A stretch of 34,089 bases of DNA, from NCBI GenBank assembly GCA_031255325.1, contig JAIRST010000067.1, positions 1-34,089 of the forward strand, in the 5' to 3' direction. How positions within the stretch are numbered: the stretch's first letter is position 1; each line of letters begins with the position of its first letter. Both the position numbers and the translations under genes were made by a program. Shown here one piece after another: positions 2,701-15,541 of this stretch. This stretch comes from Holosporales bacterium (GTDB taxonomy: Bacteria > Pseudomonadota > Alphaproteobacteria > UBA3830 > JAIRMZ01). The notes under the pieces were generated by a model, which searched no databases, was not told the origin of the DNA, and was given only the letters and a program-made list of their open reading frames with translations.

Positions 2701-2726
2701 TATGATATTATTGCCATAATATCATA
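2701..2726. repeat. perfect 11-bp inverted repeat with 4-nt loop (TATGATATTAT-TGCC-ATAATATCATA)
   Basis: Read directly from sequence; intergenic between the converging esterase and mfd genes; no T-run after it. Confidence 0.8.
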
Positions 2727-8180: not shown

Positions 8181-9986
8181 ATGCGCAAAAAATTGTATGA
8201 TCTTCCATACCGTCCTACGCGGCGTCTCTTCGGGCTTTTTATTTTTGAAGTTTTTTCTTTTATCCTTATTTTTTCTCGCTTAGCGTTCCTGCAATTCTGG
8301 GAAGATGAGCGTTATAATTTGCTTTCTCAGAAAAATTGCGTTCGTTTCTTTCCTATCCTGCCTCAAAGGGGGGAGATTTATGATAAGAATGGCCATATTC
8401 TAGCAACAAATGATGGGTCTTATCGCCTTTTTCTGGAAAATCCTTCTAAATCACGATTAGAAAAAATCTTAGGTGTTCTTAAAACAGAATTGTCTCTTTC
8501 CGAAAAAGAGATCGCCTGCATTCAGGAAAAAAGTCTTAAAAGTCCATATCTTTCTTTGATCCTTGTGCGAGATAAACTTTCATGGAAAGAAGTTTCCCTC
8601 TTGGTGTTTCTTCAGTCAACATGGCCAGAGCTCAATATCACTCTTGGATACACGCGTTCTTATCCTTATGAAGAGGCTTTCGGACATGTGGTAGGCTACA
8701 TAGGCTCTTCTAACGCACAGGAAGAAAACCAAGGGGTCTTACCTGTGAAACACCCTGACTATCGTGTGGGAAAAGTCGGGTTAGAACGTACCTTTAATAG
8801 CACTCTGTTGGGCAAGATTGGTTTTCGTAAAGTAGAAACTAATGCAGTAGGACGTATTGTTCGTCAGCTTGAGCTCTCTCCTGCTGTGTCTGGAGAATGT
8901 ATTAAAACGACGCTGGATGCGGATTTACAATCCTTTGTTTATACTTTACTGAAACCCTATAAAGCTGCTTCTTGCATTGTGATCGAAATACCGTCAGGGG
9001 CTATCAGGTGCCTTGTTTCGGTGCCCTCTTATTCCCCTACAGGACTCAGTCAAGGCAAAAGTATCGATTGGCAAACGGCACTTCAAGATCCGTGTCATCC
9101 TTTACTCCATCGTGCTATTGCAGGGCACTATCCTCCTGCGTCACCTTTTAAAATTGTAACTGCCATTGCGGCGTTAGAAGCGGGGATTATTGCCCCAAAA
9201 GAAACTATTTCCTGTCCAGGGTATTTTGAATTAGGAGGACATAAATTCCATTGCTGGCACAAGACGGGTCATGGCTCTATCACTCTTGAGGAAGCCATTT
9301 GTAAATCGTGCGATGTATACTTTTTTACTTTAGCGGGTCGTTTAGGCATTGATAAAATTGCGACAATGGCACAGCGTCTGGGTTTTGGTAAACCTACGGG
9401 AATTATGTTGTATGGCGAGAAAGCGGGTCTTGTGCCTTCTCGTGCGTGGAAATTGTTAAAGCGTCATGAAAGGTGGTCTCCAGCAGATACCGTTCTTGTT
9501 TCCATCGGGCAGGGGCCAATTCTTGCAACACCGTTACAGCTTGCAACATTTATAGCGCATATTGCGAATAAAGGGGTTCGTGTGTTTCCTACATTAGAAG
9601 AAAAAGAAGGACATTCAGCAGAAGAACTTGGATTCCGACCGGAAACGATTGCTTTCCTGCAACGCGCTCTTACGGAAGCGTGTACTACAGGAACGGGACG
9701 TCGTGCTCGTCTTGAGCCTTTTCTTGTGGCTGGAAAAACAGGGACAGCACAAGTACGTAGCATTAGCAGCCAAGACAGAATGCTTGGCAAGACGGACACC
9801 CGCGATCGTCCTTGGGAAGAGCGTGACCATGCGTCTTTTGTTGGATATATACCTGCGGATAAGCCACGCTATGCTTTGGTTATTGTTATTGAACATGGGG
9901 GTAAAGGAGGAGAGGGGGCTGCTCCTTTAGCAAAGGTTGTGTTTGAAAAATTGTTAATCCCTCACGCTGCAGGAGAGCATGCGTAA
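8181..9986 (+). CDS. mrdA: penicillin-binding protein 2 (elongation transpeptidase)
   Basis: N-terminal TM, PQRGEIYDKNGHILATN, active site SPFK, KTGTAQ motif; followed by rodA. Confidence 0.95.
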   Translation: MRKKLYDLPYRPTRRLFGLFIFEVFSFILIFSRLAFLQFWEDERYNLLSQKNCVRFFPILPQRGEIYDKNGHILATNDGSYRLFLENPSKSRLEKILGVLKTELSLSEKEIACIQEKSLKSPYLSLILVRDKLSWKEVSLLVFLQSTWPELNITLGYTRSYPYEEAFGHVVGYIGSSNAQEENQGVLPVKHPDYRVGKVGLERTFNSTLLGKIGFRKVETNAVGRIVRQLELSPAVSGECIKTTLDADLQSFVYTLLKPYKAASCIVIEIPSGAIRCLVSVPSYSPTGLSQGKSIDWQTALQDPCHPLLHRAIAGHYPPASPFKIVTAIAALEAGIIAPKETISCPGYFELGGHKFHCWHKTGHGSITLEEAICKSCDVYFFTLAGRLGIDKIATMAQRLGFGKPTGIMLYGEKAGLVPSRAWKLLKRHERWSPADTVLVSIGQGPILATPLQLATFIAHIANKGVRVFPTLEEKEGHSAEELGFRPETIAFLQRALTEACTTGTGRRARLEPFLVAGKTGTAQVRSISSQDRMLGKTDTRDRPWEERDHASFVGYIPADKPRYALVIVIEHGGKGGEGAAPLAKVVFEKLLIPHAAGEHA

Positions 9987-11091
9987 GTACCGTAATCTCT
10001 CCTTCATTTCTTTTCTTTTAAAGAATGCTGTTTTTCTTACCATAATTTGTTTAATCATGCTGATCGGTGTTGCGATGCAATACAGTGCAGGAGGCGGGCA
10101 TTGGATGCCTCGAGCCGGAAAGCATCTCTTTCGTTTCATTGTATGTATGGGCGTAATGTTAACGATAGCGCTGACCGACCAACGTTTTTGGTATGCATGG
10201 GCTTATTGGTTATACATAGGCGTTCTGTTTTTGCTCTTTTTCGTTGGACTTTGGGGGGGGGTCGGAATGGGAGCGCGGCGATGGATTGGCTTGTACATTA
10301 TAGAAATTCAACCTTCAGAATTTATGAAAGTCGCTCTTGTTCTGGTTTTATCTCGCTATTACTGCAGTCTAAATGTATGTGAAAGACAAGCTCCTGGTGT
10401 TCACATTACGCCCCTTCTGATGGTCGCTATTCCCTCCATTCTCGTTCTAAGACAGCCAGATCTTGGCAGCGCCTTAATATTGGTAGGAGCTGGATTCGGG
10501 GTTATTTTTTTTGCAGGTCTTCAGTTGTGGAAAATTGTTGCCTCTTTCTTGCTCGGATTATGCAGCTTTCCTATCGCTTGGATGCATCTGCATACGTATC
10601 AAAAAAAACGTATCCTTATTTTTCTAAACCCCGACCAAGACCCGCTTGGAGCCGGCTATCATCTGCTGCAATCAAAAATCGCCCTTGGATCGGCAGGGTT
10701 TTGGGGAAAAGGGTTCCTAAAAGGCACACAAAGTCATCTTAATTTCTTGCCAGAAAAACATACAGATTTTATCTTCGCTATGCTATGTGAGGAATTTGGT
10801 TTTCTCGGAGGAAGCTTGCTTTTATTCCTTTATATAACACTGATTGCGCTTAGTTACCTAATGACCAGTACTGTACGTGGATATTTTGGCCGTTTGATGG
10901 GGAGTGGATTGACGTTTCTTTTGTTTCTCCATGTGTTTGTTAATATTGGAATGGTAATGGGGCTTTTACCTATTGTTGGTGTTCCTCTTTCTTTTGTCTC
11001 TTATGGAGGAAGTTCAATGCTTTCCGCCGCCATCGCCCTGGGATTTGTTCTGAACATAGCGCATTATAGTACATTGCGCTTAGGGGAGTAG
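9979..11091 (+). CDS. rodA: rod shape-determining protein RodA (SEDS family)
   Basis: SEDS motifs GARRWIGLYIIEIQPSEFMKVALVL, RQPDLGSALIL, FLPEKHTDFIFAMLCEEFGF, PIVGVPLSFVSYGGSSM. Overlaps mrdA by 8 nt. Confidence 0.96.
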   Translation: MRKYRNLSFISFLLKNAVFLTIICLIMLIGVAMQYSAGGGHWMPRAGKHLFRFIVCMGVMLTIALTDQRFWYAWAYWLYIGVLFLLFFVGLWGGVGMGARRWIGLYIIEIQPSEFMKVALVLVLSRYYCSLNVCERQAPGVHITPLLMVAIPSILVLRQPDLGSALILVGAGFGVIFFAGLQLWKIVASFLLGLCSFPIAWMHLHTYQKKRILIFLNPDQDPLGAGYHLLQSKIALGSAGFWGKGFLKGTQSHLNFLPEKHTDFIFAMLCEEFGFLGGSLLLFLYITLIALSYLMTSTVRGYFGRLMGSGLTFLLFLHVFVNIGMVMGLLPIVGVPLSFVSYGGSSMLSAAIALGFVLNIAHYSTLRLGE

Positions 11092-11212: not shown

Positions 11213-11242
11213 TATAATTATGTTCCATTATGATGGAACATA
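11213..11242 (+). promoter_or_regulatory. putative promoter -10 (TATAAT, 11213-11218) followed at once by a perfect 10-bp dyad operator TATGTTCCAT-TATG-ATGGAACATA (11219-11242)
   Basis: Both halves read directly from sequence and are exact reverse complements; located upstream of the TrpR-type regulator. Confidence 0.75.
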
Positions 11243-11253
11243 AGAGTGAAAAC

Positions 11254-11547
11254 ATGGGTTTATATGATGATGTTAATTTGTTTGAAGCATTGGTTGCGTT
11301 AGATTCTTTTGATGAGGCAAAGAAATTTCTAATGGATCTTTGTACATTAGCGGAAATTGAAACTTTTTCGGAAAGGTGGAAAGTCTGTCAGCTTTTAGCT
11401 TGCGGAAAGTTTTCTTATAGAGAAATCCGGAAATTAACAGGAGCAAGCTTAACCACGATAAGGCGTGTTGCACGGTTTTTAATTGATGAACCTTATGGAG
11501 GATACAGGAGCTTATTGGAAAAAACACAAAAGAGGAAAGAAAAATGA
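11254..11547 (+). CDS. TrpR/YerC-YecD family transcriptional regulator (start re-assigned from 11230 to ATG 11254)
   Basis: Helix-turn-helix GKFSYREIRKLTGASLTTIRRVARFL and overall TrpR-like architecture. AAGAG ribosome-binding-like sequence sits 5' of ATG 11254, and the 11230 start would lie inside the dyad. Confidence 0.85.
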   Translation: MGLYDDVNLFEALVALDSFDEAKKFLMDLCTLAEIETFSERWKVCQLLACGKFSYREIRKLTGASLTTIRRVARFLIDEPYGGYRSLLEKTQKRKEK

Positions 11548-12494
11548 TGAAGAAGATTATTGCATTGCTATTAGGTTTATCAGGCATTCCCGTGAGTCAC
11601 GCGCTTCTTCCTGAAAACGCAAAGCCCGTTAAAATAGGAGTTTGTAAAGCTATAGAACATGAAGCCTTAAATTCCGTTGTTGCTGGAATGGAAGGATATT
11701 TTAAGCAACAAAAAATCAATTACCAACTTTCCGTGGAAACATGTCAAGGAAATATGGCGCTCGGTTCTCAGGCAATAGCGAAATTCGTCAATTCTGGGTT
11801 TAATATCATCGTTACAGTAGGAACGCTTCCAACACAGTGTGCCTATAGTGTTGCTAAAAGCGGAAAAGCGAAGGTGATTTTTGGGTCTGTCACAAATCCT
11901 AAAGACATATCAGTAAATATTGCAAGCGTTTCTATAACAGGCATATCAAATTTCGTCGATCTTGAGCCTCAAATAAAGATGTTTCAGGACATACAGCCTT
12001 CTCTAAAAACATTGGGAATTTTATATAATACAGGGGAAGCCAATTCCCTTTCAATTGTTAGGGAACTAAGGGATATGTGTGCAAAAAACAACCTTAAATT
12101 AATAGAGCAAGGTGTATATAAAGTGTCTGATATTCCCCAAGCTTGTGAAAAGCTTTCAGCATCTGTGGATGCAATTTTTATAAGCAATGATAATTTAGCC
12201 CTAAGTTGCATAGGAAATATCGTAAAGGTGTGTACTGCCAAGAAAATCCCTGTGTATGTTAGTGATACTGATCAGGTTAAAAACGGATGTGTCGCTGCTT
12301 TAGGACCCAACCAATATAATATCGGGGTGCAAGTCGGGAAAATTGTTGAGCGGATCGCAGCAGGTGAAGACAATATACCAATACAGTATCCAGAAACCGT
12401 AGAGTTACGCATTAACCTTAAGGCGGCTAAAGCATCGGGGGTGACTATTCCTGATACGATTTTATCACGTGCGAAAGAGATCATTCGCGAATAA
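11544..12494 (+). CDS. ABC transporter substrate-binding protein, PF04392-type (tryptophan/tyrosine importer family)
   Basis: Signal peptide MMKKIIALLLGLSGIPVSHA; periplasmic-binding fold with IGVCKAIEHEALNSVVAGM, TVGTLPTQ, KVIFGSVTNP and GILYNTGEANS. ATGA overlap with the regulator. Confidence 0.85.
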   Translation: MMKKIIALLLGLSGIPVSHALLPENAKPVKIGVCKAIEHEALNSVVAGMEGYFKQQKINYQLSVETCQGNMALGSQAIAKFVNSGFNIIVTVGTLPTQCAYSVAKSGKAKVIFGSVTNPKDISVNIASVSITGISNFVDLEPQIKMFQDIQPSLKTLGILYNTGEANSLSIVRELRDMCAKNNLKLIEQGVYKVSDIPQACEKLSASVDAIFISNDNLALSCIGNIVKVCTAKKIPVYVSDTDQVKNGCVAALGPNQYNIGVQVGKIVERIAAGEDNIPIQYPETVELRINLKAAKASGVTIPDTILSRAKEIIRE

Positions 12495-12496
12495 AT

Positions 12497-13348
12497 ATGA
12501 TAAGCGCTCAAGAACTTTTATTAAGTCTAGAAATTGGACTTATATACGGAATTGTTGCCATAGGAATATACATAACCTTTCGAGCGATAAATTTTCCAGA
12601 CATGACGTGTGATGGAAGTTTTATTCTTGGGGCTGTTGTGTCGTCCGTTACGATAAAGTGTGGATATAATCCTTGTCTATCAATCGGACTAGCCTTTCTT
12701 TCGGGAGGCCTTTCTGGATTTTTTACTGGAATTTTAAATATCTGGCTAAAGATAGAAGACCTTCTTTCAGGAATTATCATTGCCTTCATGCTATATTCCA
12801 TCAGCCTGAGGATTATGGGGGATTCCCCTAACATTACTTTTATTGATGAGTTTACTGTATTCAGCGGAGGAAAACCTTTATGTGCAATAGCAACAATTCT
12901 CTTTATTCTTGTGGTGTTTTTTATATTCATTCTTAATACAGACTTTGGGCTTAGTTTAAGAGCTGTTGGCAAAAATAAAAAATTCATTTCTATTTATGGA
13001 GCCTCTGTCAACGCTCTCATCTTTACAGGGCTTATTGCCAGCAATGCTATGATCGGAATGTGCGGTGCTCTTTTTACTCAATATCAAGGATTCTGCGACA
13101 TCTCTCAAGGCACAGGTACGCTTGTCATTGGACTGGCCTCTGTCATTATTGGGAACACAATCTTTTCTTTCAAAAGTGTTTTCTGGTCTGTTCCTGCCTG
13201 CGTTATAGGGTCTGTTCTATATAGGGTTTTTATGGTTTTTGCTATGCACAGCGATTCCCTCGGCTTAAAGACGCAGGATCTTAATTTAGTTACAGGAATA
13301 CTGATGATTACTCTTACGATCTTACGGAAAAGAAAATGCTCCAGTTGA
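12497..13348 (+). CDS. ABC transporter permease of the same importer
   Basis: Multi-TM protein with YGIVAIGIYITFRAINFPDMTCDGSF and GLSLRAVGKNKKFISIYGASV, typical of branched-chain/TrpY-like permeases. 2-nt gap from the SBP gene. Confidence 0.85.
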   Translation: MISAQELLLSLEIGLIYGIVAIGIYITFRAINFPDMTCDGSFILGAVVSSVTIKCGYNPCLSIGLAFLSGGLSGFFTGILNIWLKIEDLLSGIIIAFMLYSISLRIMGDSPNITFIDEFTVFSGGKPLCAIATILFILVVFFIFILNTDFGLSLRAVGKNKKFISIYGASVNALIFTGLIASNAMIGMCGALFTQYQGFCDISQGTGTLVIGLASVIIGNTIFSFKSVFWSVPACVIGSVLYRVFMVFAMHSDSLGLKTQDLNLVTGILMITLTILRKRKCSS

Positions 13349-14010
13349 AAAATATCACTGTCAGAAATGTTCTGCATAATCTCAATTTAACAGTTGATAC
13401 GGGAGATTTTATTCTGCTAATTGGCGAAAATGGAGCTGGTAAAACGACATTATTTAACACAATTTCCGGAGATCTTATCCCAAAGAGTGGCTCTATTATA
13501 ATAGACGGTCGGGATGTAACCTGTATCCCGCAACACAAAAGAGCGGTTCTTGTTTCAAGTGTTCTGCAAGATCCTCGGTCTGGTACTGTGGGAGGAATGA
13601 CGCTTCGCGAAAATCTACATATCGCCTATACGCGCGGGAAAAGACGGCACTTAAAGATCAGTAATTCCTGCTTGCGCGAGGATTTATATAAAGAGAAATT
13701 AAGCCTCTTAGGCATGAATTTAGAAAATAGATTAGACGAATATGTGGAAAATTTATCTGGAGGGCAGAGGCAGGCGCTAAGCATCATACTATCAATTATT
13801 GCAGATTCTAAAATCATTTTACTCGACGAAATAACAGCTGCGTTAGATGCCAAATCATCCTATAGTATTATGGAAATTGTGGATAAAACAATAAGGCAAG
13901 GGCAAAAAACCTGCCTTATGATTACCCATGATATAAGCCATACCACCCAATTCGGGGACAAAGTTCTCCTTTTAAAGAAAGGAACATTAAAAGAGGCCAA
14001 TCCTTCATAG
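13336..14010 (+). CDS. ABC transporter ATP-binding protein of the same importer
   Basis: Walker A GENGAGKTT, signature LSGGQRQALS, Walker B IILLDEITAALD, H-loop MITHD. Overlaps the permease by 13 nt. Confidence 0.93.
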   Translation: MLQLKNITVRNVLHNLNLTVDTGDFILLIGENGAGKTTLFNTISGDLIPKSGSIIIDGRDVTCIPQHKRAVLVSSVLQDPRSGTVGGMTLRENLHIAYTRGKRRHLKISNSCLREDLYKEKLSLLGMNLENRLDEYVENLSGGQRQALSIILSIIADSKIILLDEITAALDAKSSYSIMEIVDKTIRQGQKTCLMITHDISHTTQFGDKVLLLKKGTLKEANPS

Positions 14011-14151: not shown

Positions 14152-14314
14152 CGTTATCTGTAATGGATACACGGCTCACCCTTCTCAAAGTGCGAGTATC
14201 CTATTGTTTGTTTCATAAACCTATCTCATCAATATCCTAGAAACAAATCATTCTCCGACATTGCATACGAAAGATTCTCCATTTATACAAAGAAGACGAA
14301 TAAATGGGAAAAAG

Positions 14315-15541
14315 ATGGCGATTTTTCAACCAGTGCGTGGGATGCATGATTTTCTGCCAAAGGAAGCCTATCGCTTTTCTTGTTTAATAGAGCAAGGGCG
14401 TACTCTTGCTCGTCACTATGGTTTTCATGAGATTCAAACGCCGATACTGGAAAAAGCAGAAGTATTTTCTCGCCCGTTGGGGGAATCCAGTGATGTTGTC
14501 GGCAAGGAAATGTACCTCCTTACAGACCGAGGAGGCGAGATACTCGCTCTTCGCCCTGAAGGGACAGCATCCGTTGTACGTGCCTTTCTTTCGAATGGAT
14601 TAACAGATACGCTTCCCTTTAAAGAATTCTATACAGGCCCCATGTTTCGCTATGAACGTCCGCAAAAAGGGCGTTACCGCCAATTTCATCAAATAGGAAT
14701 CGAAAACTTAGGAGAATCAAGTCCTTGGAGCGATGCCGAAAGCATTTTTCTGGCACAACAATACCTGAAATCTATTCAGATAGAAGCCTTTCTTGAAATC
14801 AATACACTTGGAGACGCGGCATCACGCGCCGCTTACAAAGAAGCGTTAGTAGCGTATTTTAAAGAAAAACGTACGACCCTTTCTGCATTAAGCTTGAAGC
14901 GCCTTGAACAAAATCCGCTTAGAATTTTGGATTCCAAAGAACCTGAAGACCAAGATATTATTCAACAGGCCCCAACTTTAGAAGCTTTTCTAACCTCAGA
15001 AGCTCGCACCTTCTTTGAAACATTATGCACAGGATTAAAAACTCTTGGCATAGCGTATCGGCAGAATCCGCGCCTCGTGCGAGGATTAGATTACTATACG
15101 CACACAGTTTTTGAGTTCGTTCCTCCCTCGGGTGAAGGAGGAACTCTTCTTGCGGGGGGGCATTATGATCATCTTGTCGAGCTGATGGGTGGTCCAAAAA
15201 TGTCTGGATTTGGATGGGCTGCAGGGTTGGAACGACTATCGCTCGCGGCCTGCCCGATGGGAGCTATGGAACGCTCTATTGCTGTTATTACGGTTAACTT
15301 TAATAGTGAGGCTTATACTTGCGCTCGTCTTTTGCGTGACCAAGGATACATTGTAGAAGTATTTAGCGGAAAAGATTTTGGGAAACTTTTAAAAAAGGCT
15401 GATAGGAATCAAGCACGTTATGCTGTTATTTTAGGAGAAGAAGAAATAAATACGGCGACTGTTTCAATTAAAGATCTGGATAACCGAATCCAAGAGCGTG
15501 TTCCTTTAGCCTCTTTAAAGGAGTTTTCAAAACCTTTATGA
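14315..15541 (+). CDS. hisS: histidyl-tRNA synthetase (start adjusted from 14261)
   Basis: [56 protein letters not shown]; conserved start MAIFQPVRG. Confidence 0.96.

Follow-up and report, generated by a model that had tools for sequence, protein, structure and literature searches.

The regulator YerC has been renamed HisR, a histidine-dependent repressor whose regulons were reconstructed in nearly 500 genomes (Ashniev et al., 2022; PMC9413887). HisR of R. gnavus needs histidine to bind its hisX operator. The operator motif of alpha- and gammaproteobacterial HisR is TGTAnTArnnnnyTnTTACA, which resembles operators of TrpR, whereas the consensus of Firmicutes differs (cacTTTAnnnnnnTAAAgtg) (PMC9413887). 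Most proteobacterial hisR genes covered there stand at the front of histidine biosynthesis operons rather than of an importer; operons of the arrangement hisR-hisXYZ* are described in Wohlfahrtiimonas chitiniclastica and Acholeplasma laidlawii, while the alphaproteobacterial cases come from Rhodobacterales and Caulobacterales and Holosporales are absent from the text (PMC9413887). Importers with binding proteins of the family PF04392 are known for aromatic cargo: solved PF04392 proteins bind phenylalanine (3LKV), tyrosine (6HNI, CD0873) or tryptophan (3LFT, SP1069), with two positions setting the choice (Ala/Tyr for phenylalanine, Glu/Tyr for tyrosine, Ala/Gln for tryptophan) (PMC6816091), and the TrpXYZ importer of Streptococcus suis is under Trp T-box control (PMC9382623).

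Here, an operon is examined that looks tryptophan-related by its family names. It lies in a stretch of 34,089 nucleotides (the window), one contig of a 900-kb Holosporales genome that is 97.7% complete. Among named relatives, Holosporaceae and Holosporales metagenome genomes have the closest operons, followed by Candidatus Paracaedibacter symbiosus, Holospora undulata, and Rickettsiaceae, and the source is therefore best read as a symbiont-type alphaproteobacterium with a reduced genome. Named Holosporales relatives are mostly symbionts. A search of a limited collection of papers found none on histidine uptake in Holosporales. The evidence favors histidine over tryptophan, and very probably the locus is a hisR-hisXYZ* operon, in which HisR regulates both itself and the importer that supplies a histidine auxotroph with histidine.

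The operon, its regulator, and its operator

The features of the locus, in window coordinates, are as follows.

11213-11218, plus strand: TATAAT, a possible -10 element (tentative, from the letters alone)
11218-11243, no strand: operator dyad TTATGTTCCAT-TATG-ATGGAACATAA, 11+4+11 bp with perfect 11-bp arms
11221-11240, no strand: 20-bp HisR-type operator core inside the dyad
11230-11547, plus strand: hisR, TrpR-family repressor of the YerC/YecD type (Pfam PF01371, 7.5e-17)
11461-11463, plus strand: codon for Arg78 (numbered from 11230), at the position of TrpR Thr83 (alignment of relatives)
11544-12494, plus strand: hisX-like solute-binding protein, 316 aa (Pfam PF04392, 7.2e-53)
12264-12266, plus strand: codon for Asp241, ligand-specificity position 1 (Glu263 in CD0873; alignment to 6HNI, 3LKV, and 3LFT)
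12312-12314, plus strand: codon for Gln257, specificity position 2 (Tyr279 in CD0873, Gln284 in SP1069; alignment)
12497-13348, plus strand: hisY-like permease (Pfam PF02653, 4.3e-24; gene order as in relatives)
13336-14010, plus strand: hisZ*-like ATPase (Pfam PF00005, 6.7e-27; gene order as in relatives)
14261-15541, plus strand: hisS, histidyl-tRNA synthetase (TIGR00442, 430.9 bits, cut-off 286.75)

Four head-to-tail genes on the plus strand (11230-14010) are flanked by rodA (9979-11091) and by hisS, which stands 250 bp 3' of the importer genes and whose translation probably starts at ATG 14315. Coordinates and Pfam matches bear out the anatomy given by the first-pass annotation, in which regulator and binding-protein genes overlap by ATGA, binding-protein and permease genes are separated by a 2-nt gap, and permease and ATPase genes overlap by 13 nt. 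That annotation had also called the regulator YerC/YecD-type, and a search with family models agrees: the protein passes the YerC/YecD model TIGR02531 (53.4 bits, cut-off 42.2) and misses the TrpR model TIGR01321 (24.5 bits, cut-off 67.25). Its best solved relatives are the HisR-type proteins 3G1C, 3FRW, and 3KOR, with E. coli TrpR entries ranking behind chance-level matches, and it is intact, every invariant residue being in place.

Perfect dyads with arms of at least 11 bp and spacers of at most 8 bp occur twice in the window, where first-order Markov simulations predict 0.05 per 34 kb on average. The dyad at hisR is placed as the operators of relatives are and has no second perfect copy in the 900-kb genome, where the runner-up sites have 3 mismatches; the dyad operator proposed in the first-pass annotation holds up. 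The second dyad (TATGATATTAT-TGCC-ATAATATCATA, window 2701-2726, likewise 11+4+11) is AT-rich and is flanked by two ORFs that run toward each other, with ends at 2572 and 2933.

The annotated start of the regulator (11230) falls within the dyad. Translation is likely to begin instead at ATG 11254, which is preferred because it gives an N-terminus (MGLYDDVNLFEAL) as long as those of relatives (e.g., MSKETINLFEAL in L004). The dyad then lies 10 bp upstream of the gene; in relatives, too, the operator is found shortly before the gene. The TATAAT at 11213-11218 would, tentatively, set the start of transcription inside the operator; a scan for the sigma-70 consensus at the operator called no promoter pair. 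Local autorepression of the operon is well supported, and the earlier picture of a single autoregulated operon in an amino-acid scavenger is supported as well.

Linkage and operators among relatives

The regulator is present in 26 of 101 related genomes, and within the order the importer adjoins it in nearly all carriers. A class-wide search for the family found it in 34 of 385 genomes, several copies lying upstream of hisG, followed by hisD or hisC. With a profile search of further genome contigs (402 relatives found, 80 kept), a total of 109 distinct regulator loci was reached, of which 58 stand beside a PF04392 importer, 36 beside hisG, and 15 elsewhere. The linkage of regulator and importer, which the first-pass annotation had expected to be conserved, is found in 58 of the 109 loci. 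A phylum-wide search added 13 loci above the cut-off (L209-L221), all 13 preceding hisG, and no relative of the regulator was found upstream of trp genes in the contexts identified.

Each group of operators, importer-linked and hisG-linked, was used in turn to train a motif for the other. Training on hisG-linked sites alone yields a motif with hits in 52 of 57 importer-linked upstream regions (threshold, the 99th percentile of simulated sequence), and a motif trained on importer-linked sites, with the window left out, finds sites in 31 of 36 hisG-linked regions. Since the cross-trained motifs succeed both ways, importer-linked and hisG-linked operons respond to one type of operator. In Wohlfahrtiimonas populi and W. 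larvae, hisR stands with a PF04392 importer, and the only other operator sites with at most 1 mismatch precede hisG by about 30 bp without an intervening hisR; to judge from these sites, the operator before hisG would tie the importer-linked regulator to histidine where both targets exist. In the window genome the importer operon is the sole HisR target found, and we infer its cargo.

Importer-linked and hisG-linked proteins fall mostly in separate parts of the regulator tree, which is built on few columns and has weak support in places. It is mainly for this reason that some doubt about the ligand is kept, a shift of ligand between the two groups being conceivable. The importer itself varies: in two distant relatives, L125 (Dependentiae) and L149, hisR heads an unrelated importer (PF00497, PF00528, and an ABC ATPase), followed in L149 by hisS, and hisS also lies 3' of the PF04392 importer in Holospora undulata (L162), as in the window. 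The constant element is HisR with histidine, not the importer family.

Several relatives depart from these arrangements. In L043 (genome G035), an intact importer is preceded at about 300 bp by what is left of hisR, a short piece that reads MEDDHHHSDK... up to a stop codon; the regulator can therefore go while uptake stays. In five Rickettsiaceae/Rickettsiales loci (L110, L118, L126, L133, and L139) hisR is followed by a binding-protein gene alone, with no related permease or ATPase in the downstream stretch, and this binding protein may function with an importer that is encoded far away or is of another kind. HisR-family genes adjoin neither hisG nor an importer in L158, L161, L063, L076, L152, and L176.

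The window operator differs from those of its relatives. Where they read TGTA(C/T)TA...TA(A/G)TACA, it reads TGTTCCA...TGGAACA, with changes mirrored at positions 4/17 and 6/15 such that the palindrome is kept. The site scores 13.8 bits against a motif built from the remaining importer loci, a value reached by 0 of 2000 simulated upstream regions; with the hisG-trained motif it scores 5.1 bits, below the 99th percentile, because its sequence is altered. The window regulator is also alone among the 109 in having Arg at the position of TrpR Thr83, which is Gly in the majority and Thr in most of the rest; this position is listed as DNA-contacting (PMC9413887). Among regulators with a small residue there (Gly, Thr, Ala, or Ser), operator position 4 is a purine in 181 of 184 half-sites and T in 2, whereas with Arg, Val, or Cys it is T in 11 of 14 (Fisher P 8e-14 for 11/14 vs 2/184; the half-sites are not independent and represent 3 or 4 separate lineages, L074 was added by eye, and the 182 in the second row of the table are all non-T letters, one of them a C). 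Val accompanies T in two lineages (L059-L061; L067, L074, and L211), and L174, with Cys, has T in one half-site. L214, a further Val lineage, has A at position 4, so residue 78 does not strictly dictate the operator. From these alignments we tentatively suggest, at somewhat less than even confidence, that repressor and operator of the window changed together and that the TrpR Thr83 position may act as a specificity switch of the HisR family. What is novel about the locus is this combination of mirrored operator changes with an Arg, seen in no other regulator of the set, at a DNA-contacting position.

Cargo and competing explanations

HisD was not detected in the window genome or in 24 other genomes of the order or importer type, in which control families were detected, and trpA is absent from the window genome and the tested members of the order. 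Absence of histidine and tryptophan biosynthesis is thus read from these single marker families. Because hisD is absent, histidine must come by uptake; auxotrophy alone cannot decide the ligand, because trpA is absent as well.

The binding protein, whose closest solved relatives are 3LKV, 6HNI, and 3LFT, misses the TrpX model NF041285 (172.5 bits vs a cut-off of 390). Its Asp241/Gln257 matches none of the pairs Ala/Tyr, Glu/Tyr, or Ala/Gln. All HisR-linked binding proteins that were compared carry Asp/Gln in the setting SDTD...ALGPNQY; they come from Holosporales, Rickettsiales, gammaproteobacteria, and Verrucomicrobiota and are 35-63% identical to the window protein. This invariance suggests one fixed cargo. 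For histidine, an acidic residue opposite the imidazole makes chemical sense. The pair is also found in 6 of 26 PF04392 proteins with no HisR link, which weakens it as proof; as a mark of histidine binding it would offer support, not proof.

In the resulting model, with ample histidine HisR would bind the dyad at the transcription start and shut its own operon, probably by blocking the promoter; as histidine falls, HisR would release, and the PF04392-type ABC importer would be made and bring histidine in. Histidine would accordingly serve as both co-repressor and cargo in the window species, and in a genome without hisD the operon would form a complete supply-and-demand switch.

The first-pass annotation had read the locus as an import switch for an aromatic amino acid (tryptophan or tyrosine) sensed by a TrpR-like regulator. 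Its view that the ligand of the regulator is the cargo of the transporter is supported, and an aromatic identity for that ligand is not, since YerC-type regulators are HisR and relatives precede hisG, hisD, and hisC with the same operator. Solved PF04392 members do bind aromatic amino acids (PMC6816091), Gln257 is as in the tryptophan binder SP1069, tryptophan must be imported because trpA is missing, and proteobacterial HisR operators are TrpR-like (PMC9413887). However, the TrpR and TrpX cut-offs are both missed, the latter by a binding protein with Asp rather than the Ala of the tryptophan binder at position 1; relatives and operator are tied to hisG, hisD, hisC, and hisS; and in Wohlfahrtiimonas one operator is common to importer and hisG. 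On the family cut-offs, the linkage to his genes, and the common operator, an aromatic switch is very unlikely and is rejected. On this evidence the annotation was right on anatomy and logic and wrong on the ligand.

It is also unlikely that HisR senses histidine and governs a TrpX-family importer of other or broad cargo (e.g., histidine plus aromatics). The family affinity of the binding protein to TrpX and the unlinked carriers of Asp/Gln would fit such a cargo; the invariance of the pair in HisR-linked proteins, and the pairing of HisR with an unrelated importer, argue against it. Degenerating regulation, with a regulator that no longer binds or matters and a constitutive importer, might be read from the departure of the window operator from consensus and from the relative that keeps its importer beside a decayed hisR (L043). 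A perfect palindrome with paired substitutions and an intact regulator are the opposite of drift, and we consider this reading very unlikely.

Taking the operon as a HisR-autoregulated histidine importer corrects a likely misreading of such loci in Holosporales, Rickettsiales, and other host-associated bacteria. It would extend the published HisR regulon to reduced-genome auxotrophs, in which the regulator survives only to meter uptake, and it offers two predictions: two residues would mark histidine specificity among PF04392 binding proteins, and a single residue would govern operator choice by HisR.

Comparison with known systems

Like the window regulator, E. coli TrpR (PF01371) has the same fold family, a helix-turn-helix, a TGTACT-type palindromic operator, and autoregulation. 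At what are presumably contact positions of TrpR, its Gly85, Ser88, and Leu41 correspond by hand alignment to Val80, Phe83, and Asp36 of the window regulator. The HisR/YerC proteins of Firmicutes and of proteobacterial his operons (TIGR02531; 3G1C, 3FRW, 3KOR) agree with it in family and length, and share its D-L/V-C-T...E helix, TGAS..T-I-x-R-V recognition region, palindromic operator, and autoregulation. Importers of the TrpXYZ/CD0873 type have the same binding-protein family and, unlike the Asp/Gln of the window, carry Ala/Tyr, Glu/Tyr, or Ala/Gln. The closest match is hisR-hisXYZ* of Wohlfahrtiimonas (PMC9413887), which has the same four genes in the same order and a 20-bp palindromic operator before hisR. 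Its importer is of the PF04392 type in L140, L141, L147, and L148, which belong to other species than the W. chitiniclastica named in that study, with identities to the window of about 36% for the binding protein, 45% for the permease, and 50% for the ATPase. Unlike the window genome, which is without hisD, Wohlfahrtiimonas has histidine biosynthesis with an operator before hisG, and its operators are of the TGTACTA type rather than the TGTTCCA type. The kind of operon is thus already known from Wohlfahrtiimonas; the present example has an altered operator and belongs to a Holosporales-like auxotroph.
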